Source: a virus. From it: 42,105 nt of DNA. The first letter of the stretch is position 1. Each line of letters opens with the position of its first letter. This document shows positions 15,733 through 27,760 of the stretch, piece by piece. The position numbers were made by a program, and so were the translations under genes. The stretch spans positions 1 through 42,105 of the IMG/VR virus record IMGVR_UViG_3300027749_000204, one strand, 5' to 3'. The notes below the pieces were generated by a model, which was not told where the DNA came from, searched no databases, and worked only from the letters and a program-made list of their open reading frames with translations.

Positions 15733-17322
15733 ATGGGACGTTTTGTACCAATTACAATAACAACAAGTATTGCTGAAAAAACAGCTCCCGTAGTTCCGGG
15801 TGCAAAAGTTTCTTATAACGGTAAACAATGTTGGCAATATAAAGTAGTATACGATAGACCAGGCACGTACACATTTACGGTGCCTACTGGTGCTATCTGT
15901 GCAAGAACAGTGATTGTTGGCGGTGGCGGCAAACCCAAGTGCGGAAGTGTAAACTTTGACGGCACAGTATGTAACAGTGCGGCAGGTGCAGGCGGTGCAT
16001 ATAGCGACAAGTGTCATGCAGTCACAGCTGGCAGCACTGCATTTACTATAGTGGTAGGTCGACAAGAACAAGATAGTACCGTGGCTTGCAACAGCGTAGC
16101 AGTGCATACAGCAGGTGGTGCTGCCGGAATGACTCCAGGAGCAGCTTCAGGAGGCGACTGGAACAGTCGTGGCGGATGTTCAGGGTGGACTTGTAACTAT
16201 TGCGGCGGATCATACAGTCACTATTGCGGTAGTTGTAAGTGTTTTGTTGCTGGGTCAGTTTGTGGATATTGCTATGTGATGCAATTTACTGAAGGCCAAG
16301 TTGGTTCTACTGCTTGTTGTAACATGATATTGGCAGGTGGAGCAAGTGCTGGATCTCCAAGAAACTTGTGCGGTGGTTGCTCCAGCATACTATGCGGAAA
16401 CTGTTTTAGTGGTGTAGCCGGCGGAGGCGGAGGCCTGGGTTCATCTTGCGTAACCAATGTTTGGTCATATCCTTGCTGTAGTTGTATTTGTTTTGCTCCA
16501 GCAAGCCCACAAGTTGGACGTTGGTGTATTGATTACCCAACATCAGTACAGGGCGGATATGGTAGTATCAAGTCAGATAGTCAGCAATGCAAAAGCACTG
16601 CTTATCAATGTATATATGGAATCTGGAAAGCTGGCGACGGCGGCCCTGGAGGCCCTGATACCAACGCGGGCGAAGCTTGGAAGGTAGAGTGGGGTTATTC
16701 AGGCTTGTGTGCGTACCCGTTTGGAGTTCAATGTTGGAATGAACAACAATGGACATGTACTGAACAAGCACCGTGTCGTGTGGACTGGTGGGATATTGCA
16801 GACATATGCGGTACTGGCAGTCCTGGTACTGGCATGTGGAGATCGATGACCGGTTGTTACGGCTCTGGTATGATTGGCCCACGTCCAAAAAATTCAGGCG
16901 AAGGTGCTGGCACAGGCGGCATTATGACATTCTGTTGCAATCCAAACCAATTTGGTAATATGTTGAGCGGTGGCAACCCCACAGACAATGTAAATTGGTT
17001 AAAACTATGTAGCTTAGGATTAACGGGGCAGTGCGATCAAGCATGGCTAATGCCAGACTCGTTATTTCCTATGTTTGTTACTTGTGCTGGAACATTGGGA
17101 GGATCAGGAGGTGTTGGTTGGTGTACCTATACTAGCAAAGCTGGCAAAGGCGGCGGCGGTGGCCAAGCAAAATGCCAATTTTTATGTATTTGCTGGGGCG
17201 GAGCATTCGATTGTTGTAACCAAGTGGCTTCAACACCATTGGCATTCCCTCCTTGCTTGTTAGATCAAATGCTCAGCAATGCCGGCACAGGTATGGCAAT
17301 TATATATTATAGGGAAGCATAA
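15733..17322 (+). CDS. Cysteine- and glycine-rich virion-associated protein (copy 1)
   Basis: 529 aa with about 46 cysteines (near 9 percent) and long Gly runs. The N-terminal part has the phage glycine-rich fold signature (GTYTFTVPTGAIC, then VIVGGGG, GAGGAYS, TIVVGRQEQDS, TPGAASGGDWNS). The C-terminal part has CAGTLGGSGG, KAGKGGGGG and GTGMAIIYYREA. Cysteines come as single residues, CC pairs and CxC/CxxC groups, without the regular spacing of one known zinc finger. There is no signal peptide or membrane segment. AAGGAG at 15720-15725 supports the start. It starts 11 bases after the preceding gene and is followed by a paralogue two bases downstream. Probably an extracellular part of the virion where disulfides or metal could stabilise a Gly-rich sheet; function unrecognised. 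Confidence 0.75.
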   Translation: MGRFVPITITTSIAEKTAPVVPGAKVSYNGKQCWQYKVVYDRPGTYTFTVPTGAICARTVIVGGGGKPKCGSVNFDGTVCNSAAGAGGAYSDKCHAVTAGSTAFTIVVGRQEQDSTVACNSVAVHTAGGAAGMTPGAASGGDWNSRGGCSGWTCNYCGGSYSHYCGSCKCFVAGSVCGYCYVMQFTEGQVGSTACCNMILAGGASAGSPRNLCGGCSSILCGNCFSGVAGGGGGLGSSCVTNVWSYPCCSCICFAPASPQVGRWCIDYPTSVQGGYGSIKSDSQQCKSTAYQCIYGIWKAGDGGPGGPDTNAGEAWKVEWGYSGLCAYPFGVQCWNEQQWTCTEQAPCRVDWWDIADICGTGSPGTGMWRSMTGCYGSGMIGPRPKNSGEGAGTGGIMTFCCNPNQFGNMLSGGNPTDNVNWLKLCSLGLTGQCDQAWLMPDSLFPMFVTCAGTLGGSGGVGWCTYTSKAGKGGGGGQAKCQFLCICWGGAFDCCNQVASTPLAFPPCLLDQMLSNAGTGMAIIYYREA

Positions 17323-17324
17323 AA

Positions 17325-18956
17325 ATGGGACGTTATATAAGTACAGGTACAGCATCAACTGCTACTGGAACAACTGTTACAATTCTTAATTCAACCTGTT
17401 ATCAAGTTACTAAACACAAGTATTCGTACGATCCAACAAGTTGCTGGGCAAATCGAGTTATAATAGATACACCTGGATCGTATACATTCACAGTACCGGC
17501 CGGCGCAACTTGTATACGTACCATTGCAGTTGGCGGTGGCGGAAAAGTCAAAGGTTGCAGTCCAGTATGTTGCGGTATGGCGGGTGCTGGTGGCGGCTAC
17601 GTGGAGCGTGTGGACACTGTGGCTTCGGGTTGTACTATCACTATAGTGGTAGGAAGACAAGAAGCAGATACCACCATCTCGTATACAAATAGTAGTGCTG
17701 TTTCTAGAACACTCACAGGTGGCGGTGCTGCCGCATGTACTCCAGGAGCAGCTTCGGGCGGTGATTGGAACAGCACAGGCGGTGCCGCTGGTTATAATTT
17801 CAGTGACGGCTACCAATGCGGAAAATGCGTTTATGTAACAGCTATGGCGGCTTGTTGCGGATATTGTTTGGTATATTCAGGCATTTCTGGCCGCCAACAA
17901 GATTCAAACACTGCGGATACTGCATATTGTGCTCCAAGTCACCCAGGTGGCGGCAGTGCTGGTTCGTGGATTTGGTCAACAGGCGGTGCAGGACAATGCA
18001 CACGTCAGCAAATGTCAGTGTGCCAAGGCGACGGCTATGCAGTAAAAGCCGCTGGCGGCGGCGGCATAGGTTATATTAGTCGCAATGTGCTTGGCGGTGC
18101 AAATTGTACTTGTATCTGCACCAAAAATCAATGCGGCGTTGGTTTTCCATTCCGTAAAACTTGTTATCCAGTTGGAACCGGCGGCGGAGGCGGAACAAAG
18201 TGGGTTTGCCAAACTTGTTACGAGTATTGGACTATTGACGGATTCTGTCAAGATGGTACATGGCGAATGGGCGAAGGCGGCTGGGGCGGGAAAAATAACG
18301 ATGAAGGCCGTAGCGAAATGATGTGGTATTTCTGTTCGGACACTGCCTGTATGGGTAGAAGTTTTTGGCACAAACAAGGCCCGTCACCTAAAACTTATCC
18401 GTGGCATGACATACATGAAATGGCCGGTTCAGGCAGTGCTGGTACAGGATTCCACGCAGTTTGTTATCAATCAGACGAAGGCAGCATGTGGAATCAAGGC
18501 CATCGTGTAAATCCATATAATTGTGTTAATGCAGGCGAAGGTGCAGGAACTGGAGGTGTAGCATATAATTGTTGCGAAATGAACTCTATGGGCATGTGCT
18601 GTTGCGTGGGCGGGGCAGATGCATACGTAGGCATCAACATGCTACTAGTGTGTTGTTTAGGCATCACTAACAGGGTATGTTGTGCAGATAAAATGTATGA
18701 TCAGTTGTTTCCGTTCGTTACTCACTGTGCAGGAACACTGGGCGGATCAGGCGGCGTTAGTACTTGTAATTTAGCATCACGTGCAGGTAAAGGCGGCGGT
18801 GCAGGTGTACCAAGAAATTATCTGCTGTGTGTATGCTATGGCGGCACATACGATCTATGTAATGGTTCAGGGCCTGCATTAGCATTCCCCCCAAGCGAAT
18901 TAGACTGGCGTGCAAGTATGGCAGGTACTGGCATGGCAATCATATATTGGAAATAA
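17325..18956 (+). CDS. Cysteine- and glycine-rich virion-associated protein (copy 2)
   Basis: 543 aa with about 42 cysteines, a clear paralogue of the 529-aa protein encoded two bases upstream. Shared landmarks in order are MGR at the N-terminus, G(T/S)YTFTVP.GA.C, VGGGGK, GAGG.Y, IVVGRQE.D, TPGAASGGDWNS, EGAGTGG, CAGTLGGSGGV and GTGMAIIY at the C-terminus. Between the landmarks the two diverge strongly, although both keep a high Cys content and many Trp and Tyr residues. It has CC and CCC clusters (for example MGMCCCVGG). Its own Shine-Dalgarno is the AGGGAAG overlapping the end of the upstream gene, so translation is probably coupled. Possible products are two subunits of a heteromeric tip or two alternative receptor-binding proteins; neither is established. 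Confidence 0.75.
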   Translation: MGRYISTGTASTATGTTVTILNSTCYQVTKHKYSYDPTSCWANRVIIDTPGSYTFTVPAGATCIRTIAVGGGGKVKGCSPVCCGMAGAGGGYVERVDTVASGCTITIVVGRQEADTTISYTNSSAVSRTLTGGGAAACTPGAASGGDWNSTGGAAGYNFSDGYQCGKCVYVTAMAACCGYCLVYSGISGRQQDSNTADTAYCAPSHPGGGSAGSWIWSTGGAGQCTRQQMSVCQGDGYAVKAAGGGGIGYISRNVLGGANCTCICTKNQCGVGFPFRKTCYPVGTGGGGGTKWVCQTCYEYWTIDGFCQDGTWRMGEGGWGGKNNDEGRSEMMWYFCSDTACMGRSFWHKQGPSPKTYPWHDIHEMAGSGSAGTGFHAVCYQSDEGSMWNQGHRVNPYNCVNAGEGAGTGGVAYNCCEMNSMGMCCCVGGADAYVGINMLLVCCLGITNRVCCADKMYDQLFPFVTHCAGTLGGSGGVSTCNLASRAGKGGGAGVPRNYLLCVCYGGTYDLCNGSGPALAFPPSELDWRASMAGTGMAIIYWK

Positions 18957-18969
18957 TTAGGAGAATTAA

Positions 18970-19509
18970 ATGAGTCACGGTAAAATTTGGGCAAAAATAG
19001 TAGATAACGAAATCATGCAGATACATGATGAAGATCCATCGGGTCTTTGGCATCCAGATGCACTAGAATTGTGGCAGGAAGTTCCTGAACATGTTCATGT
19101 GGGTTGGAAGTTTAAAAATGAAGAGTGGATTAGTGGCGGCCAGTGGCTAGATGAACACATAGCGGCAAACCCACCGCCTCCTCCCGGCCCGCCTTGTGGT
19201 CGTATTGATTACACAATTGGTGTTAATAATGAAACGTATAAAGCCACTGTATTGTTTGATATTCAGGTAGGCGGAATATGGACTGAGTTCTATGTTGACA
19301 TCGACGGCAAACGATATGAAAATTTAACTGAAAATGAGTATGTTGACCTTGAGTTAGTGTTTGATCAAGGTGATACACCCCGTCAAGTTCCTGTTATAAT
19401 CACAACAATTGGCCCAGGTGGTACACATGTTGAAGATTTAACGGATGTTGAAATTGAAAGACAACTTATCATTCCAGAAAAGTTTATTCCATTCTTTGCA
19501 AGAAAATAA
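18970..19509 (+). CDS. Tail-fibre-associated protein with Pro hinge
   Basis: 179 aa. The start is supported by AGGAG at 18959-18963. Residues about 1-60 (KIWAKIVDNEIMQIH, then GLWHPDALELWQEVPEHVHV, then GWKF) match the short N-terminal module found in many phage tail-fibre and fibre-assembly proteins. A proline stretch (NPPPPPGPPCG, about residues 72-82) separates it from an acidic, beta-rich C-terminal part (FDIQVGGIWTEFYVDIDGKR). It is the last gene of the fibre operon and is directly followed by a strong terminator. It could be a fibre-assembly chaperone or a small fibre subunit; the sequence does not decide. Confidence 0.65.
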   Translation: MSHGKIWAKIVDNEIMQIHDEDPSGLWHPDALELWQEVPEHVHVGWKFKNEEWISGGQWLDEHIAANPPPPPGPPCGRIDYTIGVNNETYKATVLFDIQVGGIWTEFYVDIDGKRYENLTENEYVDLELVFDQGDTPRQVPVIITTIGPGGTHVEDLTDVEIERQLIIPEKFIPFFARK

Positions 19510-19522
19510 TTTGCACATGATT

Positions 19523-19550
19523 CAAAAAAGGGCATCAATGCCCTTTTTTG
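19523..19550 (+). terminator. Strong intrinsic terminator ending the fibre operon
   Basis: A near-perfect hairpin with GGGCAT / ATGCCC arms flanked by six A on the left and six T on the right, starting 13 bases after the stop of the 18970 gene. The A-run/T-run symmetry means it could also act on the minus strand. It separates the fibre block from the enzyme island. Confidence 0.9.
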
Positions 19551-19643: not shown

Positions 19644-20435
19644 ATGAACGTAACTGAAATTATACTAGAACACACAGCCAATGAATTTATCACAGAAATT
19701 GCAATAGACAGCAAAGAATTTTGTCTAGATAAATCTCATTTTTTTAATTATCCAAAACAAATTGTTTATCATTTCAATCAGCTGGGATATCGTGATCAAG
19801 AATGGCATGGTGACATATCTAATGGTATATGGTGTGTCGGAGATAGTTTTACAGTAGGGCTTGGCCAGCCTTTTGAAGAAATTTGGCCGCAATTAGTTCA
19901 GAAAAAACTAGGACAAAAAACATTTAATATGAGTATGAATGGAGCCAGCAATGATTGGATTGCTAGAAGAATACAATTCATATTGGATAATTTTGAACCA
20001 TCGTTATTACTGGTACAATGGAGTTACACACACCGGCGAGAAAATTCTAATACCATGCTGAGTGACGAGGCCCGAGCTGGCCATTTTAGTAAAGAATTAG
20101 AGATGGAATTAGAATATATAAATCACCTGCCAAAAACAAAACAACTTGACCGCATAACTGTGTTAGATAATCTAGATATTGAAAATTGTTTGCATAATAT
20201 CATGTCGATATCAAATGAACACAACGTAAACATAATACATTCATTTGTTCCAGAATTTTTTAATCCTTTGACTGATCCTCAAGCTTCAATTTATTCAGTC
20301 CTAGAAAAACACAATATTAATTTTTTCCCTGCACAAGAACAACTTGACTTTGCAAGAGATGGGTTTCATTATGACATACTTACAGCAACACACTATGCTG
20401 ATCAATATGTTAGCAAAATAAAAACATTATCTTAG
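19644..20435 (+). CDS. SGNH/GDSL-like hydrolase (copy 1)
   Basis: 263 aa. Three SGNH landmarks are in place: block I GDSFT with Ser68, an Asn-containing block MNGASNDW (about 97-105), and C-terminal D239-G-F-H242 (the DxxH of block V). Members of this fold hydrolyse esters, often acetyl groups on carbohydrates, using a Ser-Asp-His catalytic set. There is no signal peptide or membrane segment, so the enzyme would act in the host cytoplasm or as part of the virion. It has a paralogue at 22371-23129. No Shine-Dalgarno is visible; the start agrees with the paralogue when the N-termini are aligned. Surface-polysaccharide or glycan deacetylation is the best general guess, with the substrate unknown. 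Confidence 0.72.
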   Translation: MNVTEIILEHTANEFITEIAIDSKEFCLDKSHFFNYPKQIVYHFNQLGYRDQEWHGDISNGIWCVGDSFTVGLGQPFEEIWPQLVQKKLGQKTFNMSMNGASNDWIARRIQFILDNFEPSLLLVQWSYTHRRENSNTMLSDEARAGHFSKELEMELEYINHLPKTKQLDRITVLDNLDIENCLHNIMSISNEHNVNIIHSFVPEFFNPLTDPQASIYSVLEKHNINFFPAQEQLDFARDGFHYDILTATHYADQYVSKIKTLS

Positions 20436-20472
20436 TTTTTATCCTATATTTGCCTTATGATAATTTGTAGCC

Positions 20473-20480
20473 TATAAATA
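20473..20480 (+). promoter_or_regulatory. Consensus late promoter TATAAATA, 4 nt before ATG
   Basis: An exact match to the T4 late-promoter consensus in a 49-base intergenic gap. The octamer is separated from the ATG at 20485 by only four bases (TCAT). With the T4 rule (octamer at about -13 to -6) transcription would start at or within one base of the ATG, giving a leaderless message. Confidence 0.65.
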
Positions 20481-20484
20481 TCAT

Positions 20485-21252
20485 ATGAAAAATCTACATG
20501 AACTTCAAGTAGTCTTTGTTAACTATGCTATTGGCAGCGGCGGCTGGTTTTTAGCATCCTTAATACAAAAATGGATAAACCCGTTATTAACTTTGAAAAT
20601 TGACAAGAACGGGTCAGGACACGCAAATACGTATATCTATCACATTAATAGTTTGTATAAAGACTTTATGCACAGTGATATTGGGCTGAGTATAATTAAT
20701 GATTTGAAATATGACACATATTCAGAAAATCAGCGAATTGAGTATTTAAAAGACAGTATTAAAATCAGTAATGTAACTGATAGCATAATGGTAGTATCAT
20801 TACACTGTGCTAACTTAGATATATTTCTTAAAGCATTTCCTTCTGCTAAATTTATCTGTATTAACATCACAACTGATGAAATACTTAGATGTAGATTTAA
20901 CTTTTTATATAAAGCAATGGTAGCAAGGCCTGAACTATTTGAGGGGATGATAAAAACGCATGGCAAGAATTTAGACGAATCACTGACTAAACTCAAACAT
21001 TTAAACAAAGAAAATTTAGATTATTTTGAATGGACTGATGCTGAAATTATTAAATTCATGCCCAAAGAATTTTATAGTTCTGATAAAGTTATGAATGTAC
21101 AATACTCTGATTATATTAACGGTGACGATGCTGTATTTTTAGACTCTATAGCTGAATTTCTAAATTTAAATATTAACCAAGAACAATTTGATGAAGCTGT
21201 GGAAGATCTAGTTACTTACAGATTTAGTCAGCCTCCCTTGCCAATTAGTTGA
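20485..21252 (+). CDS. Sulfotransferase-like protein
   Basis: 255 aa. An N-terminal strand-loop (VVFVNYAIGSGGWFLASLIQ, loop about residues 15-25) resembles the phosphosulfate-binding loop of P-loop sulfotransferases. A following hydrophobic strand (AKFICINITTDEIL) and the C-terminal VQYSDYINGDD then LDSIAEFLNL, FDEAVEDL also suit that family. A clear 3'-phosphate-binding Arg/Ser motif was not found, so the assignment is tentative. The next gene encodes a clearer sulfotransferase-like protein, seven bases downstream. The ATG is directly preceded by a late promoter at 20473-20480 and has no Shine-Dalgarno. A generic NTP-binding or host-takeover protein is the alternative. Confidence 0.45.
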   Translation: MKNLHELQVVFVNYAIGSGGWFLASLIQKWINPLLTLKIDKNGSGHANTYIYHINSLYKDFMHSDIGLSIINDLKYDTYSENQRIEYLKDSIKISNVTDSIMVVSLHCANLDIFLKAFPSAKFICINITTDEILRCRFNFLYKAMVARPELFEGMIKTHGKNLDESLTKLKHLNKENLDYFEWTDAEIIKFMPKEFYSSDKVMNVQYSDYINGDDAVFLDSIAEFLNLNINQEQFDEAVEDLVTYRFSQPPLPIS

Positions 21253-21259
21253 ATTCATT

Positions 21260-22390
21260 ATGAACATAATAGTATTAACTCCTGATAGAGTAGGATCAAC
21301 ATTACTACAAAAGTTTTTAACCATGACTATGCAGAATTATAATTACGGAAAACCAGTAATAAATCTGCATGAAATAACAAATGGACTTGTTTCATATCAT
21401 TCCAAAACATTTGATCAAACTGTTTTAGGAAAACCCAGTAAGGAATTATGGGGCTATCATCAAACATTGGAAGAAGTTGTAACACTGTTATCGTCTGCAG
21501 ACCACTACAAAGTCAGTAGGCTAGCACAATATCATATTTTAAATCGAAAAGATAGTTTACAAGATCAATTGAGTCTATACAAATATATAAACGATAATTT
21601 TTATATCATCAGTGCTCGTCGCGAAAATTTATTTGAACATGCCCTTAGCTGGTGTGTTGTTGCGTTCACAAAACATCTTAATATCTACACACATGAAGAT
21701 AAAATTGATGTTTTTAAAAATCTATATAAAAAACAAATTACCATAGATCAAGAAGTGTTTAAAAATTATCTAGACAAATATTTAATATACTTGAAGTGGG
21801 TAGACGACCATTTCATGATCAATTCAGTATTTAATTACGACACACATACAAAAGATTTAGAAAAATATGTTAACCAGTTGGATATATTTCCAGAAGGACA
21901 GCAAATTAAAACTTGGCAAGAAACATATGGTATCTCTTGGAACACATGGAATAAATGTCATTATACCCTAAGCGATATGAGCGGAATCAGTAGTATTGAT
22001 TATACCGCATCCCAGAAATTACTCAACGCTCCATTAAACACAAATCTTCCAAATAATGCCATGAGTTTGACCGAGATCATTTCTCGCAATAGTATCGGAG
22101 TTGCCCAACAGCAGATGCTGACAACAAACCTTCCAGCATATTATGAAGTGTACAAAACTATAGACCACATGGTTGGTAACGGAACTTTGATAAACGGTAT
22201 GCCAATAAAATTGCAAACTTTAGCAGAAAAAGCAATGCTGATTAAAAATTTTAAAGAGTGTTTAGATACATATAACACATGGAGCAGTAAAAATAAAGCA
22301 GGCTCTCAGTTGTCAATAGAAAATCTTGGAGAAACTGCGTTGGCAGAATTAAAAAACTGGTATGACACAAATGAATTTAGATCAAATTAA
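21260..22390 (+). CDS. Sulfotransferase-family protein
   Basis: 376 aa. The N-terminus MNIIVLTPDRVGSTLLQKFL contains the loop DRVGSTLL (residues 9-16), like the PAPS 5'-phosphosulfate loop. ISARRENLFEHALSW (about 117-131) resembles the 3'-phosphate-binding element (R..N....ALS). I recognise this type from marine T4-like phages, where it is annotated as sulfotransferase or hypothetical. The reaction would be sulfo transfer from PAPS to a hydroxyl, probably on a glycan. The last 20 bases overlap the next gene, so translation is probably coupled. It has no Shine-Dalgarno. The C-terminal 120 residues, predicted helical, match no family I know. Confidence 0.6.
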   Translation: MNIIVLTPDRVGSTLLQKFLTMTMQNYNYGKPVINLHEITNGLVSYHSKTFDQTVLGKPSKELWGYHQTLEEVVTLLSSADHYKVSRLAQYHILNRKDSLQDQLSLYKYINDNFYIISARRENLFEHALSWCVVAFTKHLNIYTHEDKIDVFKNLYKKQITIDQEVFKNYLDKYLIYLKWVDDHFMINSVFNYDTHTKDLEKYVNQLDIFPEGQQIKTWQETYGISWNTWNKCHYTLSDMSGISSIDYTASQKLLNAPLNTNLPNNAMSLTEIISRNSIGVAQQQMLTTNLPAYYEVYKTIDHMVGNGTLINGMPIKLQTLAEKAMLIKNFKECLDTYNTWSSKNKAGSQLSIENLGETALAELKNWYDTNEFRSN

Positions 22391-23129
22391 ACTACAAAAG
22401 ACTGTGGACGAATTTCTCACAGAAGTTGGCATAGACAGTCTAAACTTGTGCAAAGACCCAATACATTTTAAAAATTACTCAAAAATTGTAATTTATAAAT
22501 TCAATCAAATGGGGTATCGAGATGACGAATGGCCTGAAAATATATTGGGTAATATTTGGGCAGTGGGCGATAGTTTCACTGTAGGACTAGGGCAACCTGT
22601 TGAAGAAACGTGGTCTAAAATTGTAGAAAAACAATTAGATAAACGTGTAATTAATGTGGCAATGAACGGTGCAAGCAACAGTTGGATCACAAGAAGAATT
22701 CAATTTATTCTAGATAACTTTAATCCAGCCGCTATACTGGTGCAATGGAGTTATTTGCATCGGAGAGAAAATTCTGACAATACGCTGCCAGATGAAGACA
22801 GGGCACTGCATTTTGACGTAAAATTAATAAAAACAAAAGAAGATGTAACTGTATTAAATCAGATTGATGCACAGCATTTGTTAGATAACATCCATTCGAT
22901 ACAAAATAAAAATAATGTAAAAATAATACATTCTTTCATACCTAAATTTTATAATAATGATGCCAATCTGGCTTTGCCAATATATAAAGAGTTAGAAAAT
23001 AATAATATTAATTTTTTCCCTGAACTAAAGCAAATTGATTTTGCAAGGGATGGGTTTCATTATGACATACTTACAGCAACAAGATATGCTGAATGGTATG
23101 TTAAAAAATACAGTAGTGACCAGTTATAA
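22371..23129 (+). CDS. SGNH/GDSL-like hydrolase (copy 2)
   Basis: 252 aa from the ATG at 22371. An in-frame ATG at 22362 exists, but aligning MNLDQIKLQKTVDEFLTEVG with the paralogue's MNVTEIILEHTANEFITEIA puts both starts and both GDSFT motifs (Ser68) in the same register, so 22371 is preferred. D227-G-F-H230 forms the block V motif and AMNGASNSW is conserved. A 33-base tract around DGFHYDILTAT (23049-23081) is identical to 20358-20390 in copy 1. It overlaps the upstream sulfotransferase-like gene by 20 bases and ends tail-to-tail with the oxygenase gene, overlapping it by six bases. Likely an esterase-type enzyme with unknown substrate. Confidence 0.72.
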   Translation: MNLDQIKLQKTVDEFLTEVGIDSLNLCKDPIHFKNYSKIVIYKFNQMGYRDDEWPENILGNIWAVGDSFTVGLGQPVEETWSKIVEKQLDKRVINVAMNGASNSWITRRIQFILDNFNPAAILVQWSYLHRRENSDNTLPDEDRALHFDVKLIKTKEDVTVLNQIDAQHLLDNIHSIQNKNNVKIIHSFIPKFYNNDANLALPIYKELENNNINFFPELKQIDFARDGFHYDILTATRYAEWYVKKYSSDQL

Positions 23130-23717
23130 TTTGATGCCAGTTGATTTGTAAATCTTATCACGAGTATAGTAAGTGGCAACATTGCCGGAGATACATATCT
23201 CCATATTGATAGCAATCCTGTAATCTAATGAAGAGTGAATCTGAGGCTCGTGATACACATAATTAGGCATAATCAAAAGATCATCTTCATCAGGCATGAA
23301 CAAGATAGGCTCCTGCATTTTATTTTTTGCAATAACTAGCCCTCCTTCTTCTCCTGAAATATCGTGGGGAAGTTTCAAATAATAAATGGCGTTAATTGAC
23401 GATGTTTTTATATGATTATGAAGATTAGTCTTAAAGTTATCTCTATTATAGACATTTGCCCAACACCATGATTTATTTCTGTCTGCAAGCGATAACGGTC
23501 CAAATACAGTATTGACTGTAGACAACAGATATGCATATAGATTTTTAAAGTCACCGTTATTATCAGTCACGTGAAAAGTATATCCTCCGTGATATTTAGA
23601 AATATCATCTTTTTGAGAAAGCACAGTACTAATCATCCGTTGTCTAGTTTTGGAATCTATTGTATATGTAGTCTCTAATATTTCCGGAAACTCAACATTA
23701 TAATAAATGTTAGACAT
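23124..23717 (-). CDS. 2OG-Fe(II) oxygenase-like protein (second gene of pair)
   Basis: 197 aa. The pattern WCWANVYN, LHNHIKTSS (His100, His102), AIYYLKLP, DDLLIMPNYVYHEP (His156) and YRIAINMEI (Arg167) follows the small 2OG-Fe(II) dioxygenases of the phage-common 2OG-FeII_Oxy_5 type: two His ligands near a turn, a distal His and an Arg for the 2-oxoglutarate carboxylate. Such enzymes hydroxylate proteins or small molecules. It overlaps the upstream 207-aa paralogue by eight bases (ATGTCTAA), so the pair is one minus-strand operon. Its stop codon is interlocked with that of the SGNH gene on the other strand. No terminator fits between them. Confidence 0.65.
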   Translation of the reverse strand: MSNIYYNVEFPEILETTYTIDSKTRQRMISTVLSQKDDISKYHGGYTFHVTDNNGDFKNLYAYLLSTVNTVFGPLSLADRNKSWCWANVYNRDNFKTNLHNHIKTSSINAIYYLKLPHDISGEEGGLVIAKNKMQEPILFMPDEDDLLIMPNYVYHEPQIHSSLDYRIAINMEICISGNVATYYTRDKIYKSTGIKL

Positions 23718-24333
23718 GGGTATTAATATTAAAACTTATAACAATTCTATCAGACCCGGATTGATTACGTGCCGACTCGTGTTTTAAATATCCAGGAAAT
23801 ACAATTAGTTTGCCAGGAGTTACTGGAATAGTTATACGTGTATTTCCACGATATCTGACACCGTCTGGCTCGTTGCTCAATGCATATTCTTTAGGATCTG
23901 TTAAAATTAAATCACCGCAATCAACTTCCGCACTGACATAATAAGCACCGCTCCAGTGTGCAGTTCCATGATTATGCGGCGGCACATATGCACCCTGCGG
24001 ATATACATTTGTCCAAGAATTTATAAAATCCCACTTGCCTGTAAAGTCTAACCGACTAAAAAATTCAGAAATAGTTGGCTTAATCAAACTAAACACGCCA
24101 TTGAATTCGGGTAACAATAATAGATTGTTAGCGTTATTAAATGAACTATACCCAGTTGATCCAAAATTGTCTGTCAATATATGATTATTCCACTCGTAGC
24201 TTAATAGTCTTTTATCATCCATGTTTGCAAATAGCTTTTCGATATTTTGAGATAGCTGTGCATTAAGCTCGTGTGTATCAGCTTGTTGAGATTCTAAGAT
24301 TGGTACAGAAAATCCGTTAATTATTTTGTTCAT
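23710..24333 (-). CDS. 2OG-Fe(II) oxygenase family protein
   Basis: 207 aa, the clearer member of the pair. WTNVYPQGAYVPPHNHG (His120, His122), then WSGAYYVSAE and GDLILTDP, then TPGKLIVFPGYLKHESARN (His185) and SDRIVISFN (Arg196) is the classic layout of the 2OG-FeII_Oxy_5 family common in marine T4-like phages. Expected chemistry is 2-oxoglutarate- and O2-dependent hydroxylation; the substrate is unknown. The length is normal for the family. It is divergent from the glycosyltransferase gene at 24458 across 124 bases. No convincing promoter could be read on the minus strand, and only a weak AGAG precedes the ATG. Confidence 0.82.
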   Translation of the reverse strand: MNKIINGFSVPILESQQADTHELNAQLSQNIEKLFANMDDKRLLSYEWNNHILTDNFGSTGYSSFNNANNLLLLPEFNGVFSLIKPTISEFFSRLDFTGKWDFINSWTNVYPQGAYVPPHNHGTAHWSGAYYVSAEVDCGDLILTDPKEYALSNEPDGVRYRGNTRITIPVTPGKLIVFPGYLKHESARNQSGSDRIVISFNINTHV

Positions 24334-24378
24334 ACTCTACTTATCTTATCTAAATACGTACTAATTCAATCATGGCTC

Positions 24379-24408
24379 TTGACTACAAAGCCAATAGTAA
24401 GCTATACT
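24379..24408 (+). promoter_or_regulatory. Sigma-70-like promoter for the GT9-carbamoyltransferase operon
   Basis: TTGACT (24379-24384), 18-base spacer, TATACT (24403-24408), each box five of six to consensus, 49 bases before the ATG at 24458. A short dyad, TAGTA / TACTA at 24395-24409, overlaps the -10 box. Host RNA polymerase could read this operon before late transcription begins. Confidence 0.6.
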
Positions 24409-24420
24409 AAAAAAATAGAT

Positions 24421-24428
24421 TATAAATA
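24421..24428 (+). promoter_or_regulatory. Consensus late promoter TATAAATA
   Basis: An exact T4-type late octamer ending 29 bases before the ATG of the 24458 gene and lying 12 bases after the sigma-70-like -10 box. The operon may be expressed both early and late. Confidence 0.65.
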
Positions 24429-24457
24429 TCTTTAACTGAGTATATTAAAGGGCAATA

Positions 24458-25381
24458 ATGAAAAAAATATTTTTTATCAACGGTGGTGCAGGCAGGGTAC
24501 TTGCTAGCATTCCGGCATTAGAAGAAAGTCACAAACGAGGTGAATTGGGTGGAATCGTTTGCGAAGGAGGCATGGAGTTTTATTTGGGCCATCCTATTCT
24601 GCAAGATTTTGCGTTTGACGTCAATCACAAGGGTATTTTTGAAAATCTAATTAAAGATAACTTGTGTGTTAGTCCTGAACCGTACAGGGATCATGAATAT
24701 TATAATCAGCGTAGTAGCTTACAACAAAGTTTTTGGTGGGAAATTTTAGGTGAAAGAACTACAGTGAATATTAAACCCACTGTTGTATTAAACAAGTCCG
24801 AAGAAATGTCAGCAATGGAAATTCTCGGACAAGTACGTCAACAACATCAAAAAGAAAAAACTATTGTTATTCAACCATTTGGTCGAAGTAGCAATCTTGG
24901 CGGTAGTATAGTATATGATCAAAGTAGTAGAAGTTTAGAGCAATCGACTTTTATGGAACTAGTAGCAGAATTATCTAAAGATTACAATATCATGTACATG
25001 GGAGAACACAAATTAAATGTAGTTAATCTTCCAATCTTCCAGCCCGATAATAATATGCCATTACGAATTTGGGCCGCAATTATTGAGGCAGCAGATTATT
25101 TTATTGGATGTGATAGTGTGGGACAGCATCTTGCTTATGCATTTAACAAACCTGGTACAATTGTGTGTGGAAGTACATTTCCTGTAAACATCACATACCC
25201 TGAACACTTTAATATTGTGGAAAAGAAGGATGCAGTACGACATTATAGTCCAATTAGAATTGCAGGATTTGCTGCCGAAGAAGCAGATAGACTTAACGAC
25301 ACAATTATGGATTTTAGTAAAGATGAACTTAAAAGTATAATTGCAGGTATTAAAGCACATATTTCAAAAACAACAAAATAA
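24458..25381 (+). CDS. GT9-like (heptosyltransferase-type) glycosyltransferase
   Basis: 307 aa. The N-terminal FFINGGAGRVLASIPALEE resembles the first strand and Gly loop of GT-B family 9 enzymes. The C-terminal half has the hallmark donor-site stretch: IWAAIIEAADYFIGCDSVGQ, then HLAYAFNKPGTIVCGST (Asp219, Ser220, His224). TIVIQPFGRSS (about 135-145) matches the start of the second Rossmann domain. These enzymes move a nucleotide-activated sugar onto LPS-type or other glycans in the cytoplasm. An AAAGGG at 24447-24452 precedes the ATG. It lies 11 bases upstream of the carbamoyltransferase, and the two form an operon with dual promoters. Acceptor and donor are unknown. Confidence 0.68.
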   Translation: MKKIFFINGGAGRVLASIPALEESHKRGELGGIVCEGGMEFYLGHPILQDFAFDVNHKGIFENLIKDNLCVSPEPYRDHEYYNQRSSLQQSFWWEILGERTTVNIKPTVVLNKSEEMSAMEILGQVRQQHQKEKTIVIQPFGRSSNLGGSIVYDQSSRSLEQSTFMELVAELSKDYNIMYMGEHKLNVVNLPIFQPDNNMPLRIWAAIIEAADYFIGCDSVGQHLAYAFNKPGTIVCGSTFPVNITYPEHFNIVEKKDAVRHYSPIRIAGFAAEEADRLNDTIMDFSKDELKSIIAGIKAHISKTTK

Positions 25382-25392
25382 GGAATTAACAC

Positions 25393-27105
25393 ATGTGGTT
25401 ATTAGGAATTAATGTAGGACATAACGGTGCGGCTGCACTGTATAAAGACAGCGAATTAATTTTTTATATTGAAGAAGATCGGTTGAGCCGAATGAAGTAC
25501 GACGGCAATCCGTTTTTAGGTATTGAAAAAGCATTTGAATATACAGATCACATTGATTTTGTTATTTTATGCGGAACACGAAACGCATTTGGCCAAGTGC
25601 CGTGGACTGGCGAAGATGCATATACCTGTTTAGTGCGTAAGAAACAGCCAGGACATCATGTAGAAACTATTAAGTTGGGCGACGATCACCATATGACACA
25701 TGCTGTTACTGCATTTTATAACAGCGGATTTGATGATGCGGCCGCCATTGTGATTGACGGTGCAGGTAGTGGAATTAATATTCCAGACTTAAAAGACATT
25801 TGGCTAGAGACATGGGAAGTAGAATCTATTTGGAGTATGGGATATCCTGCAGAAATTAAACGACATCTAGTTAATTACGGTACAAATCTTGTTGATAGTT
25901 TTGAATTACTTGATGACGATTGCCATATCGAAGTATCAGATGGTCACGGCATTACCAAAAGTTACGAAGCTGTAACGCAATACTTGGGATTCCATGCCAT
26001 TGAAGCTGGCAAGACCATGGGTATTGCACCTTACGGTAAACCCAATGCTAATATTAAAATTCACGATGGTAGATTTAACAACAGAAGTTTAATCAAGCCA
26101 AAGTTTCCTGCTGGAAATGTTATTAGATGTGATTTAAATCCAGAATTAAAAGAGCATGAAGGTGATGTTGCATGGCATACTGATCCCGATCTCATTGACG
26201 ATTTTAGAAAAGATCTAGCATATGCTGTACAGAAATCAGCAGAAGAACGTGTGATTGCATTAATTAAGAAAACAATTGAATTGACTGGTAAGAAAAAGAT
26301 TGTTATGGCCGGCGGTTTTGTTTTAAATTGTGTGGCTAATTATGAATTCTTAAAAGAATTTCCAGATGTTGAATTTTATCACGAACCAGTAAGCCATGAT
26401 GGTGGTAATGTAATGGGGGTATGCCAACATGTATACCGAACAATTACTAAAGATTCTGTCAAAACACCGTTGACAAGTTTATATCTTGGGCTTGATCACA
26501 GTAAGGAATATGCAACTACAGATTTTAGTGGATTTACCGTTGAAGATACAGATGCTTCCGTTGTAGCAAAACTCATTGCAGATGGCAACATTGTTTGCTT
26601 GTATCAAGGGCGTAGTGAAGCAGGCCCACGTGCGTTGGGAAATCGTTCAATTTTATTTGACCCAACAGTTATTAACGGTAAAGATATTGTTAATGAAGTT
26701 AAACATCGTGAATGGTTTAGGCCGTTTGCAGGATCAGTAATGGCAGAACATGCCAGCGAGTGGTTTGATTTTCGCTCACGCACAGATAGCCCGTTTATGA
26801 TGTATGCTGTAAATGTGTTGGAAGATAAACAAGCATTAATTCCAGCAATTACACACGTGGATGGAACTTGTAGAATTCAAACTGTAACATCGGAACAAAA
26901 TCCGCATTATTACAAACTAATCAGCGAGTTTAACAAACTAAAAGGTGTACCTATTTTATTTAATACCAGTTTTAATCTTGCTGGCGACCCGCTGGTTGAA
27001 ACTGTTAAAGAAGCATTGGCAACACTTGAAAAGTCTGAATTGTGTTATTTGTGGATGCCAGATATTGGAAAACTACTAACAAAGAATAGTTTTAAAGAAG
27101 TATAA
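25393..27105 (+). CDS. NodU/CmcH/TobZ-family carbamoyltransferase
   Basis: 570 aa, full length for the family. The N-terminal ASKHA-like domain has LGINVGHNGAAALYKDSELI, the metal-site DDHHMTHAVTAFYNSG (His99, His100, His103), VIDGAGSG and EAGKTMGIAPYG (about 204-215), then AGGFVLNCVANY. The C-terminal domain has EAGPRALGNRSIL (about 407-419), HVDGTCRIQTV (about 489-499) and PILFNTSFNLAGDPL (about 520-534). It should use carbamoyl phosphate and ATP to make a carbamoyl adenylate and place the group on a hydroxyl. Known acceptors in the family are sugars and antibiotic scaffolds; phage members have been reported to act on 5-hydroxymethylcytosine in DNA. AAGGA at 25381-25385 precedes the ATG. 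A bidirectional terminator follows immediately. Confidence 0.93.
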   Translation: MWLLGINVGHNGAAALYKDSELIFYIEEDRLSRMKYDGNPFLGIEKAFEYTDHIDFVILCGTRNAFGQVPWTGEDAYTCLVRKKQPGHHVETIKLGDDHHMTHAVTAFYNSGFDDAAAIVIDGAGSGINIPDLKDIWLETWEVESIWSMGYPAEIKRHLVNYGTNLVDSFELLDDDCHIEVSDGHGITKSYEAVTQYLGFHAIEAGKTMGIAPYGKPNANIKIHDGRFNNRSLIKPKFPAGNVIRCDLNPELKEHEGDVAWHTDPDLIDDFRKDLAYAVQKSAEERVIALIKKTIELTGKKKIVMAGGFVLNCVANYEFLKEFPDVEFYHEPVSHDGGNVMGVCQHVYRTITKDSVKTPLTSLYLGLDHSKEYATTDFSGFTVEDTDASVVAKLIADGNIVCLYQGRSEAGPRALGNRSILFDPTVINGKDIVNEVKHREWFRPFAGSVMAEHASEWFDFRSRTDSPFMMYAVNVLEDKQALIPAITHVDGTCRIQTVTSEQNPHYYKLISEFNKLKGVPILFNTSFNLAGDPLVETVKEALATLEKSELCYLWMPDIGKLLTKNSFKEV

Positions 27106-27131
27106 AAAAAGGAGCATTAAGCTCCTTTTTT
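27104..27131. terminator. Bidirectional terminator between convergent genes
   Basis: Hairpin GGAGC-ATTAA-GCTCC flanked by seven A and six T. It begins within the stop codon of the carbamoyltransferase and ends one base before the end of the minus-strand HAD-like gene, so it can end transcription from both sides. Confidence 0.88.
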
Positions 27132-27132
27132 A

Positions 27133-27711
27133 TTATATGCTGTTAGCAAATTCTAATAAACTATCAAACTCTGTTACTTTGACTTGATGTGTCAATTCAA
27201 ATGCTTTTGTTTTAGATTCTTTTCCGGGCAATTTAATTAATACTGGAATTGCTTTAACTTTAACTGAAGCTTTTGCATCATTTGCCTCAGCCCCTATATA
27301 ATATGTTCCATCCCATTTGACTGCTCCTTCTGCTTGAGCACGATCAAACATTCCGGTATTTGGCTTTACATACGGGTCATTTTTGTCAATACTGGGAGTA
27401 TAATACGCATTTTTAATCCTTGACCCCAACTGCTCAAACACGTCTTTCATGCCTGATAGTATGTTTTCAAAATCGTGCTGTTCTAAATTCTTAGTCCTTG
27501 CAGGAGGTTGTCCTGCAATTACAACAAAATCATATCCCTTTTGCGTCAGCATCTGAATTGCTTTATCGGCCCCTTCCGTTAGTTCAATTTGATTACCAGG
27601 TGTAAATGGTGTGGAATTATCAATCAAAACACCAAATAATGTCAATCCAATAACCTTGCGATTTGCCTGCATTTTCCAAATATCATTAAAATACTCTGTG
27701 TAACGACCCAT
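27133..27711 (-). CDS. HAD-superfamily GmhB/HisB-like protein, probable pseudo-enzyme
   Basis: 192 aa from the ATG at 27711, chosen over an upstream in-frame ATG at 27741 because AGGAG (complement of 27717-27721) and a promoter fit it. It aligns from end to end with D-glycero-manno-heptose 1,7-bisphosphate and histidinol-phosphate phosphatases: GVLID, LTEGADKAIQMLTQKGYDFV, KNAYYTPSIDK, VKPNTGMFDRA, YYIG. The catalytic residues are missing. The DxD motif is T24-L-F26, the motif II Thr is Ala66 in VVIAGQ, and the GD of motif IV is G140-A141 (Asp145 is kept). Lys116 of motif III remains. A phosphatase role is therefore unlikely; binding, scaffold or regulatory function is inference. Confidence 0.7.
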   Translation of the reverse strand: MGRYTEYFNDIWKMQANRKVIGLTLFGVLIDNSTPFTPGNQIELTEGADKAIQMLTQKGYDFVVIAGQPPARTKNLEQHDFENILSGMKDVFEQLGSRIKNAYYTPSIDKNDPYVKPNTGMFDRAQAEGAVKWDGTYYIGAEANDAKASVKVKAIPVLIKLPGKESKTKAFELTHQVKVTEFDSLLEFANSI

Positions 27712-27731
27712 GATAACTCCTGTAATATAGT

Positions 27732-27760
27732 AATTTAGCATTTCTAGTACAGCTTGTCAA
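27732..27760 (-). promoter_or_regulatory. Sigma-70 promoter for the HAD-like gene
   Basis: On the minus strand: perfect TTGACA (27760-27755), a 17-base spacer, then TAAATT (27737-27732), preceded by TGC that gives an extended -10. The start site would be about 15 bases before the ATG at 27711, with AGGAG between. Confidence 0.68.

Follow-up and report, generated by a model that had tools for sequence, protein, structure and literature searches.

A Glycosyltransferase–Carbamoyltransferase Gene Pair Associated With Cysteine-Rich Tail Adhesins in a T4-Like Virus and Its Relatives: A Candidate Virion-Glycosylation Unit

The Gene Island and Its Modules

The IMG/VR virus record IMGVR_UViG_3300027749_000204 (42,105 bases in its full length, hereafter the window) was read as a T4-like myovirus, and its tail-fibre region carries a nine-gene island that includes a GT9/heptosyltransferase-fold glycosyltransferase (hereafter GT9) followed by a NodU-family O-carbamoyltransferase (CARB). 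This pair, together with two cysteine (Cys)-rich, Gly-rich tail adhesins encoded upstream of it, is the subject of the present analysis (Table 1). Fibre genes extend to 19.5 kb of the window and virion structural genes run onward from 30 kb, with a tail sheath stabiliser of the g15 type at 33.9 kb and, at the window end, a head-tail adaptor, a deoxynucleoside monophosphate (dNMP) kinase and a tail sheath protein of unusual length (1073 aa). Relatives reach 280–372 kb.

A first-pass annotation of the window had listed nine open reading frames (ORFs), all of which were present at 19644–27741 with the strands and order claimed, and the terminator hairpins that it had placed at 19523 and 27104 folded well. 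Its family calls were right in outline and uneven in strength: only CARB and the second 2-oxoglutarate (2OG)-Fe(II) oxygenase (OG2) were certain, the rest being below the Pfam thresholds and assigned from motifs, profiles or fold.

For the neighbor survey, 79 loci holding a GT9 relative were fetched and their neighboring genes annotated; the IMG/VR contigs are fragments and mutually related, and counts are therefore non-independent throughout. Among the loci of the fetched relatives, the complete nine-gene set was seen in the window alone. Two pairs recurred far above chance, namely GT9–CARB and the sulfotransferase-like protein 2 (ST2) with an SGNH-type enzyme, so that co-occurrence in relatives held for these pairs and not for the nine genes as a set. 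The nine genes fall into three or more modules, each recombining independently of the others, and the single pathway proposed earlier, running from hydroxylation through glycosylation, sulfation and carbamoylation to deacylation, was rejected because the modules are found apart from each other in related phages.

Table 1. Features of the adhesin–GT9 region, with coordinates in the window.
Feature	Coordinates	Strand	Remarks
Cys-rich, Gly-rich tail adhesin 1	15733..17322	+	529 aa, 46 Cys (8.7%); likely substrate
Cys-rich, Gly-rich tail adhesin 2	17325..18956	+	543 aa, 42 Cys (7.7%); likely substrate
179-aa protein, function unassigned	18970..19509	+	Closes the upstream fibre operon; position kept in close relatives
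Intrinsic terminator hairpin	19523..19549	+	−18 kcal/mol, z −4.5
SGNH/GDSL-type hydrolase or acyltransferase, copy 1	19644..20435	+	GDSF, NGAS and DGFHY motifs
Sulfotransferase-like protein 1 (ST1)	20485..21252	+	Weak call
Sulfotransferase-like protein 2 (ST2)	21260..22390	+	PAPS-site-like motifs; paired with SGNH in other phages
SGNH-type enzyme, copy 2	22362..23129	+	56% identical to copy 1
2OG-Fe(II) oxygenase-like 1 (OG1)	23124..23717	−	Variable cargo
2OG-Fe(II) oxygenase 2 (OG2)	23710..24333	−	Pfam 1e-19; variable cargo
GT9/heptosyltransferase-fold glycosyltransferase (PHROG 8954)	24458..25381	+	Core gene; Arg13 where GT9 has the catalytic Asp
NodU-family O-carbamoyltransferase (CARB)	25393..27105	+	Core gene; starts 11 bp past the GT9 gene
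Bidirectional (symmetric) terminator	27105..27131		Between convergent genes; −17.6 kcal/mol, z −5.8
GmhB-family HAD protein, pseudophosphatase	27133..27741	−	No DxDGT; likely start Met11 (MGRYTEY) at 27711

The GT9–CARB Core Pair

Of the 86 loci whose downstream DNA was long enough, 79 had CARB directly 3′ of GT9, with a gap of −41 to +41 bp between the two genes. The pair was carried by close relatives of the window, by more distant T4-like contigs, by jumbo and podovirus-like contigs, and by the cultured cyanophages P-SSM2, S-SSM7, S-CAM1 and S-CAM3; in the podovirus-like contigs it was placed between tail-fibre genes and later virion genes. The identity of CARB is certain (Pfam 2e-61; both Pfam domains above cut-off, 206.9 and 70.8 bits; GHN and HHxxH motifs present), and its PDB relatives include TobZ and GdmN. 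In bacterial and archaeal assemblies, GT9 relatives amounted to six short matches in metagenome-assembled genomes (MAGs), which are not evidence for cellular homologues; the contigs concerned (L093–L098) probably come from viruses and were drawn into MAGs by binning.

The non-conservation of the nine-gene set and the varying set of genes that separates the adhesins from GT9 would fit a reading of these genes as independent cargo or stuffer DNA without joint function. "Stuffer DNA" was also raised for related genes in a 2010 cyanophage comparison (PMC3037559), whose passages on the heptose genes left their purpose unsettled between functional and stuffer. However, the ends of GT9 and CARB overlap or nearly do so across very different phages, and SGNH was kept in 62 of the 73 ST2 loci (only 12 of the 73 having GT9). 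The cargo reading is thus very improbable; it is strongly disfavored for both pairs and could still hold for the oxygenases.

Cysteine-Rich Adhesins Accompany GT9

The likely substrates, at 15733–18956, fall outside the region covered by the first-pass annotation, which overlooked both them and the link to ADP-heptose. The two adhesins are paralogous (40% identity across 244 aa). A composition scan upstream of GT9 revealed one to three proteins of 5–13% Cys at most loci with enough upstream DNA, against a background of 0.87% Cys, and these ORFs often lay 60–100 bp from GT9. The thresholds for Cys-rich proteins were picked after the data had been seen, and were kept, or nearly so, for the controls.

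When podovirus-like loci were fetched via an unrelated tail gene, a Cys-rich protein was found in 17/17 loci with GT9, and in one short contig only among those lacking it, many of which are short. Further, whole contigs and genomes were scored for ORFs of ≥200 aa with ≥4.5% Cys. Such a protein was present in 18/20 that had both GT9 and CARB, in 0/2 that had GT9 without CARB, and in 0/22 without GT9 (Fisher 2e-10 for 18/20 vs. 0/24, a statistic that ignores relatedness). The 18 include contig G044, whose Cys-rich ORF runs off the contig, and four cyanophages. A 5.8% Cys ORF of Syn9 was dropped as an artefact, being antisense to the capsid gene gp23, and two other Syn9 ORFs (4.6–4.7% Cys, 218–236 aa), distant from fibre genes, were left uncounted. 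Similarly, loci fetched with ST2 or SGNH queries had a Cys-rich protein in 25/25 cases with GT9 and in 3/116 without. For Gly-rich tail proteins, the median Cys content was 7.7% in GT9-containing phages (n = 39), compared with 0.5% in those lacking GT9 (n = 33; maximum 2.5%).

The Cys-rich proteins fell into 41 sequence clusters, so the association is not explained by one inherited fibre gene alone. Distant GT9s (26–28% identity) of Vibrio and Aeromonas phages, which have no CARB, likewise have neighboring tail proteins that contain Cys-dense stretches, and in the two jumbo contigs with GT9 and no CARB a tail protein shows a mild Cys enrichment (peak 6.7%).

Among adhesin orthologues, Cys was retained at 0.65–0.68, compared with an average identity of 0.48, and was second to glycine in this respect; the number of Cys was near constant (mostly 41–53) though the positions turn over. 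Even Cys counts occurred in 61 of 118 Cys-rich proteins, and strict intrachain disulfide pairing was not indicated, given no bias to even numbers. The adhesin model was of modest quality (predicted local distance difference test, pLDDT, 64) and resembled Gly-rich-domain phage proteins.

A small conserved Cys-rich protein (108–137 aa, 7–9% Cys) was also observed about 3–4 kb to the head side of gp15 (L179, L183, L199, L241, and others). It is a separate protein, probably metal-binding and unrelated to the presence of GT9, and its ORFs were kept out of the counts by their length.

Fold and Catalytic Position of GT9

By sequence, the GT9 protein scored 14.2 bits against Pfam PF01075, below the 22-bit gathering cut-off, and a profile search against the PDB detected no relative. 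Its AlphaFold2 model (pLDDT 92) comprises 307 aa, with the glycosyltransferase core from the N-terminus onward. The best Foldseek match in the PDB was TibC (4rap; E 8e-10, template modeling score, TM, 0.62), followed by WaaF, another GT9 protein and WaaC. Both the fold and a D-S-x-G-Q-H motif agree with the GT9 assignment.

Arginine occupies position 13 in 38/38 aligned phage GT9 sequences (motif register GxR…PAL). The WaaC counterpart reads G12-D13…P19-A20-L21, WaaF and WaaU show the same G-D, and the catalytic base is Asp13 in WaaC and Asp110 in TibC (PMC4358343). As judged from this alignment, an S-linkage to Cys is plausible with the Asp position taken by an invariant Arg: a thiol acceptor needs no strong base, so that the lost Asp and the Cys-rich partners would fit together. 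Another residue of GT9 could act as the base instead.

TibC belongs to the bacterial autotransporter heptosyltransferases (BAHT; PMC4358343), with which the scheme proposed below shares the use of ADP-heptose, the intracellular decoration of surface adhesins and a gene beside that of the substrate. The phage protein differs from TibC in being shorter, in having no N-terminal β-barrel domain and in its Arg in the motif register of the catalytic Asp of TibC and WaaC; moreover, it has a CARB partner, and its substrate candidates are Cys-rich proteins instead of a repeat autotransporter. The four-Cys iron finger of TibC is also missing, the GT9 alignment having Cys218 as its sole invariant Cys and 1–6 Cys per protein. 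The phage pair can be likened to TibC plus the Pseudomonas carbamoyltransferase WapO, yet GT9 has none of the iron finger, Asp and β-barrel by which the TibC family is recognized.

TibC, a protein heptosyltransferase, acts on Ser/Thr of autotransporter adhesins (PMC4358343), which as the best fold match raises the alternative that GT9 and CARB act on Ser/Thr or another residue of the adhesins. The Cys would then serve separately, in disulfide cross-links or metal binding, within one travelling fibre cassette. Ser and Thr are common in the Cys-rich proteins (about 8% each), and Cys is over-represented in CC and CxC pairs, in keeping with this alternative. However, strict within-chain pairing would be expected to bias the Cys counts to even numbers, the Cys content depends on GT9 across unrelated fibre families, and the Arg at the catalytic Asp position is invariant. 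Taken together, this alternative is judged rather unlikely.

A GmhB-Like Protein and Putative Heptose Supply

The degenerate HAD call of the first-pass annotation was borne out, and the protein was assigned to the GmhB family by profile. In detail, a profile built from 25 HAD homologues matched best to 4pnh, a D,D-heptose 1,7-bisphosphate phosphatase (E 5e-22), and the match to PRK08942 was 9e-16, under its cut-off. The window protein has LTLFGV in place of the DxDGT nucleophile motif; the podovirus-like relatives retain intact DRDGV, KPN and GD motifs. The gene is convergent with CARB and lies just 3′ of it in the window and most close relatives, with an insertion between them in L002 and L010. 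The window lineage thus retains, in near-constant synteny, a GmhB homologue without catalytic aspartates, that is, a conserved pseudophosphatase. An M-x-R-[YF] N-terminal start is common to the HAD protein (27711) and several Cys-rich adhesins (15733 and 17325 in the window; G006, G009, G012) and is rare elsewhere within the same genomes; it may be a docking or assembly tag.

In the podovirus-like contigs, the HAD gene adjoins HldC, HldA, cupin and HldD genes near the GT9–CARB pair. By NCBIfam, the relatives encode homologues of HldA (heptose-7-phosphate kinase, 1.5e-43), HldC (heptose-1-phosphate adenylyltransferase, 2e-37), HldD (ADP-heptose epimerase, 3e-66) and GmhB (8e-39). Kinase, adenylyltransferase, cupin and epimerase genes are placed elsewhere, away from GT9–CARB, in the 280-kb and 356-kb relatives, and HldC/HldA/HldD-type genes come after the pair in S-CAM1 and S-CAM3. 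The "LPS" (lipopolysaccharide) cluster T4-GC 304/305/307/308, described for P-SSM2, S-SM2 and S-SSM7 in the 2010 comparison, consists of HldC/HldA/cupin/epimerase genes and lies directly 3′ of GT9 (GC302) and CARB (GC303) in P-SSM2, and at a greater distance on that side in S-SSM7. The passages of PMC3037559 on these "LPS" genes do not tie them to GC302/303 or to Cys-rich fibres.

The heptose genes, the GmhB family and the fold match together point to ADP-heptose as the donor. NodU-type carbamoylation of heptose is known from WapO of Pseudomonas (PMC8005017). WapO (PA5005) works in the LPS core with WaaC/WaaF, so that, as in the phage pair, a NodU-type carbamoyltransferase stands beside GT9 heptosyltransferases; it acts on bacterial LPS, whereas the phage CARB is tied to tail genes, and the likeness is one of family and description, not of sequence alignment.

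Marine Synechococcus LPS is not known to contain heptose. This counts against the alternative of a host-directed role, in which LPS core heptose or the capsule would be modified during infection (to prevent superinfection, for instance) and the proximity to the fibre genes would reflect evolution of both against one receptor. Such a function would accord with the action of WaaC/WaaF and WapO on bacterial LPS-core heptose (PMC8005017) and with the "LPS" label that the passages of the 2010 comparison (PMC3037559) gave to the neighboring genes. However, it leaves the strict co-variation with fibre Cys content and the tight coupling to fibre genes unexplained, and is considered quite unlikely.

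In the cyanophages, genes annotated as "phosphoheptose isomerase" (L081 16030–16374 = PSSM2_311; L082 20702–21037) carry a HAD-type DIDGTI motif, and probably encode a small HAD phosphatase and not GmhA.

Proposed Function of the GT9–CARB Pair

Based on these findings, we propose, with a probability of roughly 55%, that GT9–CARB is a virion-glycosylation unit that puts carbamoylated heptose on the phage's own Cys-rich adhesins. The earlier suggestion that the island could modify fibre residues was partly upheld: the island is located among tail-fibre genes, and fibre proteins are the most likely targets of the core pair. ADP-heptose would come from the host, possibly topped up by the phage HldA/HldC/HldD/GmhB homologues. 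In the infected cell, the GT9-type enzyme would put heptose on many sites of newly made tail adhesins, CARB would then O-carbamoylate the adhesin-bound sugar as a cap, as a NodU/WapO-type enzyme, and the coated adhesins would be built into the tail. The resulting adhesins would be covered by a small non-host carbamoylated sugar, and may thereby differ in stability, in recognition or in how they contact the receptor. The GmhB-like HAD protein, no longer a phosphatase, would probably be a binding or assembly partner for the sugar or the proteins.

The acceptor may be the Cys thiol, which would explain both why adhesin Cys content tracks the presence of GT9 and why the catalytic Asp is missing. 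It is a tentative proposal that a GT9-fold transferase without the general-base Asp S-glycosylates dozens of Cys per adhesin with carbamoylated heptose, as a new protein glycosylation and virion coat chemistry of T4-like, podovirus-like, cyano-, Vibrio and Aeromonas phages. Cys S-glycosylation is performed by the glycocin S-glycosyltransferases (SunS and relatives), which belong to another enzyme family and use small bacteriocin substrates, so that only the proposed chemistry is alike.

Several observations weigh against the proposed virion glycosylation or its thiol variant. GT9 and CARB are both present on contigs G023 and G024, which have no ORF of ≥200 aa at ≥4.5% Cys, and the association between GT9 and Cys is phylogenetically non-independent and could reflect GT9 and fibre genes being exchanged together as one cassette. 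The residues flanking Cys in the Cys-rich proteins showed no sequon, and the adhesin model gave no significant PDB match. The correspondence of Arg13 to Asp13 is one of motif register, without residue-by-residue superposition, and hhalign of GT9 covered the C-terminal nucleotide-sugar motif region only. As for the donor, the HldA/HldC/HldD/GmhB homologues all score under the equivalog cut-offs, HldA, HldC and HldD are absent from the 42-kb window, and no convincing GmhA was found.

Carbamoyltransferases and glycosyltransferases also occur in some phage DNA-modification pathways, and the pair might accordingly glycosylate and carbamoylate a modified base. Nevertheless, the genes lie in a late tail-fibre region with no adjacent base-modifying enzymes, the fold matches protein/LPS heptosyltransferases, and the tie is to fibre Cys; such DNA hypermodification is hardly likely and the least probable of the alternatives.

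Virion glycosylation by phages is already known, and S-heptosylation would be categorically new if shown. Mycobacteriophages decorate their own virion proteins by phage-encoded glycosyltransferases (Freeman et al., 2023, cited in PMC10877033); the targets given there are capsids and tail tubes, whereas Cys-rich adhesins, an ADP-heptose donor and carbamoylation are proposed here. Within the literature searched, nothing relevant was found on Cys-rich cyanophage fibres or on a heptosyltransferase with a carbamoyltransferase in phages, nor any link between heptose genes, the GT9–CARB pair and Cys-rich adhesins. The reason for heptose and carbamoyltransferase genes in aquatic phages has been a question since at least 2010, going by the passages on such genes in PMC3037559, and the present analysis links them to a specific candidate substrate, the Cys-rich tail tips, which occur in the cultured phages S-CAM1, S-CAM3, P-SSM2 and S-SSM7 as well. 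If the proposal is true, the receptor-binding proteins of many aquatic phages would be hidden glycoproteins, so that phage display and the prediction of host range and structure would be affected, and a Cys-modifying glycosyltransferase family useful in protein engineering might emerge.

Sulfotransferase, SGNH and Oxygenase Modules

ST2–SGNH is an independent conserved pair (loci L453–L611), whose genes are convergent, divergent or co-directional, usually without GT9. The motifs of SGNH copy 1 are intact in copy 2 as well, both copies being sub-threshold by Pfam, and the doubling is a local duplication seen in the window only. A single-sequence scan with SGNH found no relatives, whereas an alignment-based search found 90. 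Of the sulfotransferases, ST1 had a sub-threshold Pfam match and ST2 none; motifs resembling the 3′-phosphoadenosine-5′-phosphosulfate (PAPS) site were present in ST2 only (PDRVGSTLL and RRENLFEHALSW), and PDB searches gave no useful match (ST1 weak, ST2 none).

OG2 scored 71 bits and is a certain 2OG oxygenase; OG1 scored 26.8 bits vs. a 27-bit cut-off, with the iron-ligand residues present. The H-x-H…H…R iron ligands are invariant in 18 sequences, and the oxygenases are variable among relatives. ST2–SGNH and the oxygenases were regarded as interchangeable extra modules, which may add decorations in some phages.

SSSM7_124 ("denV", L082 16607–17161), annotated as DNA endonuclease V, resembles a 2OG-Fe(II) oxygenase, and homologues of it are found repeatedly in such islands; PHROG 274 also matches the window oxygenase at 7e-6. 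The endonuclease V label is possibly a mis-annotation. Tryptophan-halogenase-like genes were also observed in the same island (L011, L012, L013, L030, and S-SSM7, L082 17158–18645), and possibly represent a further adhesin modification.

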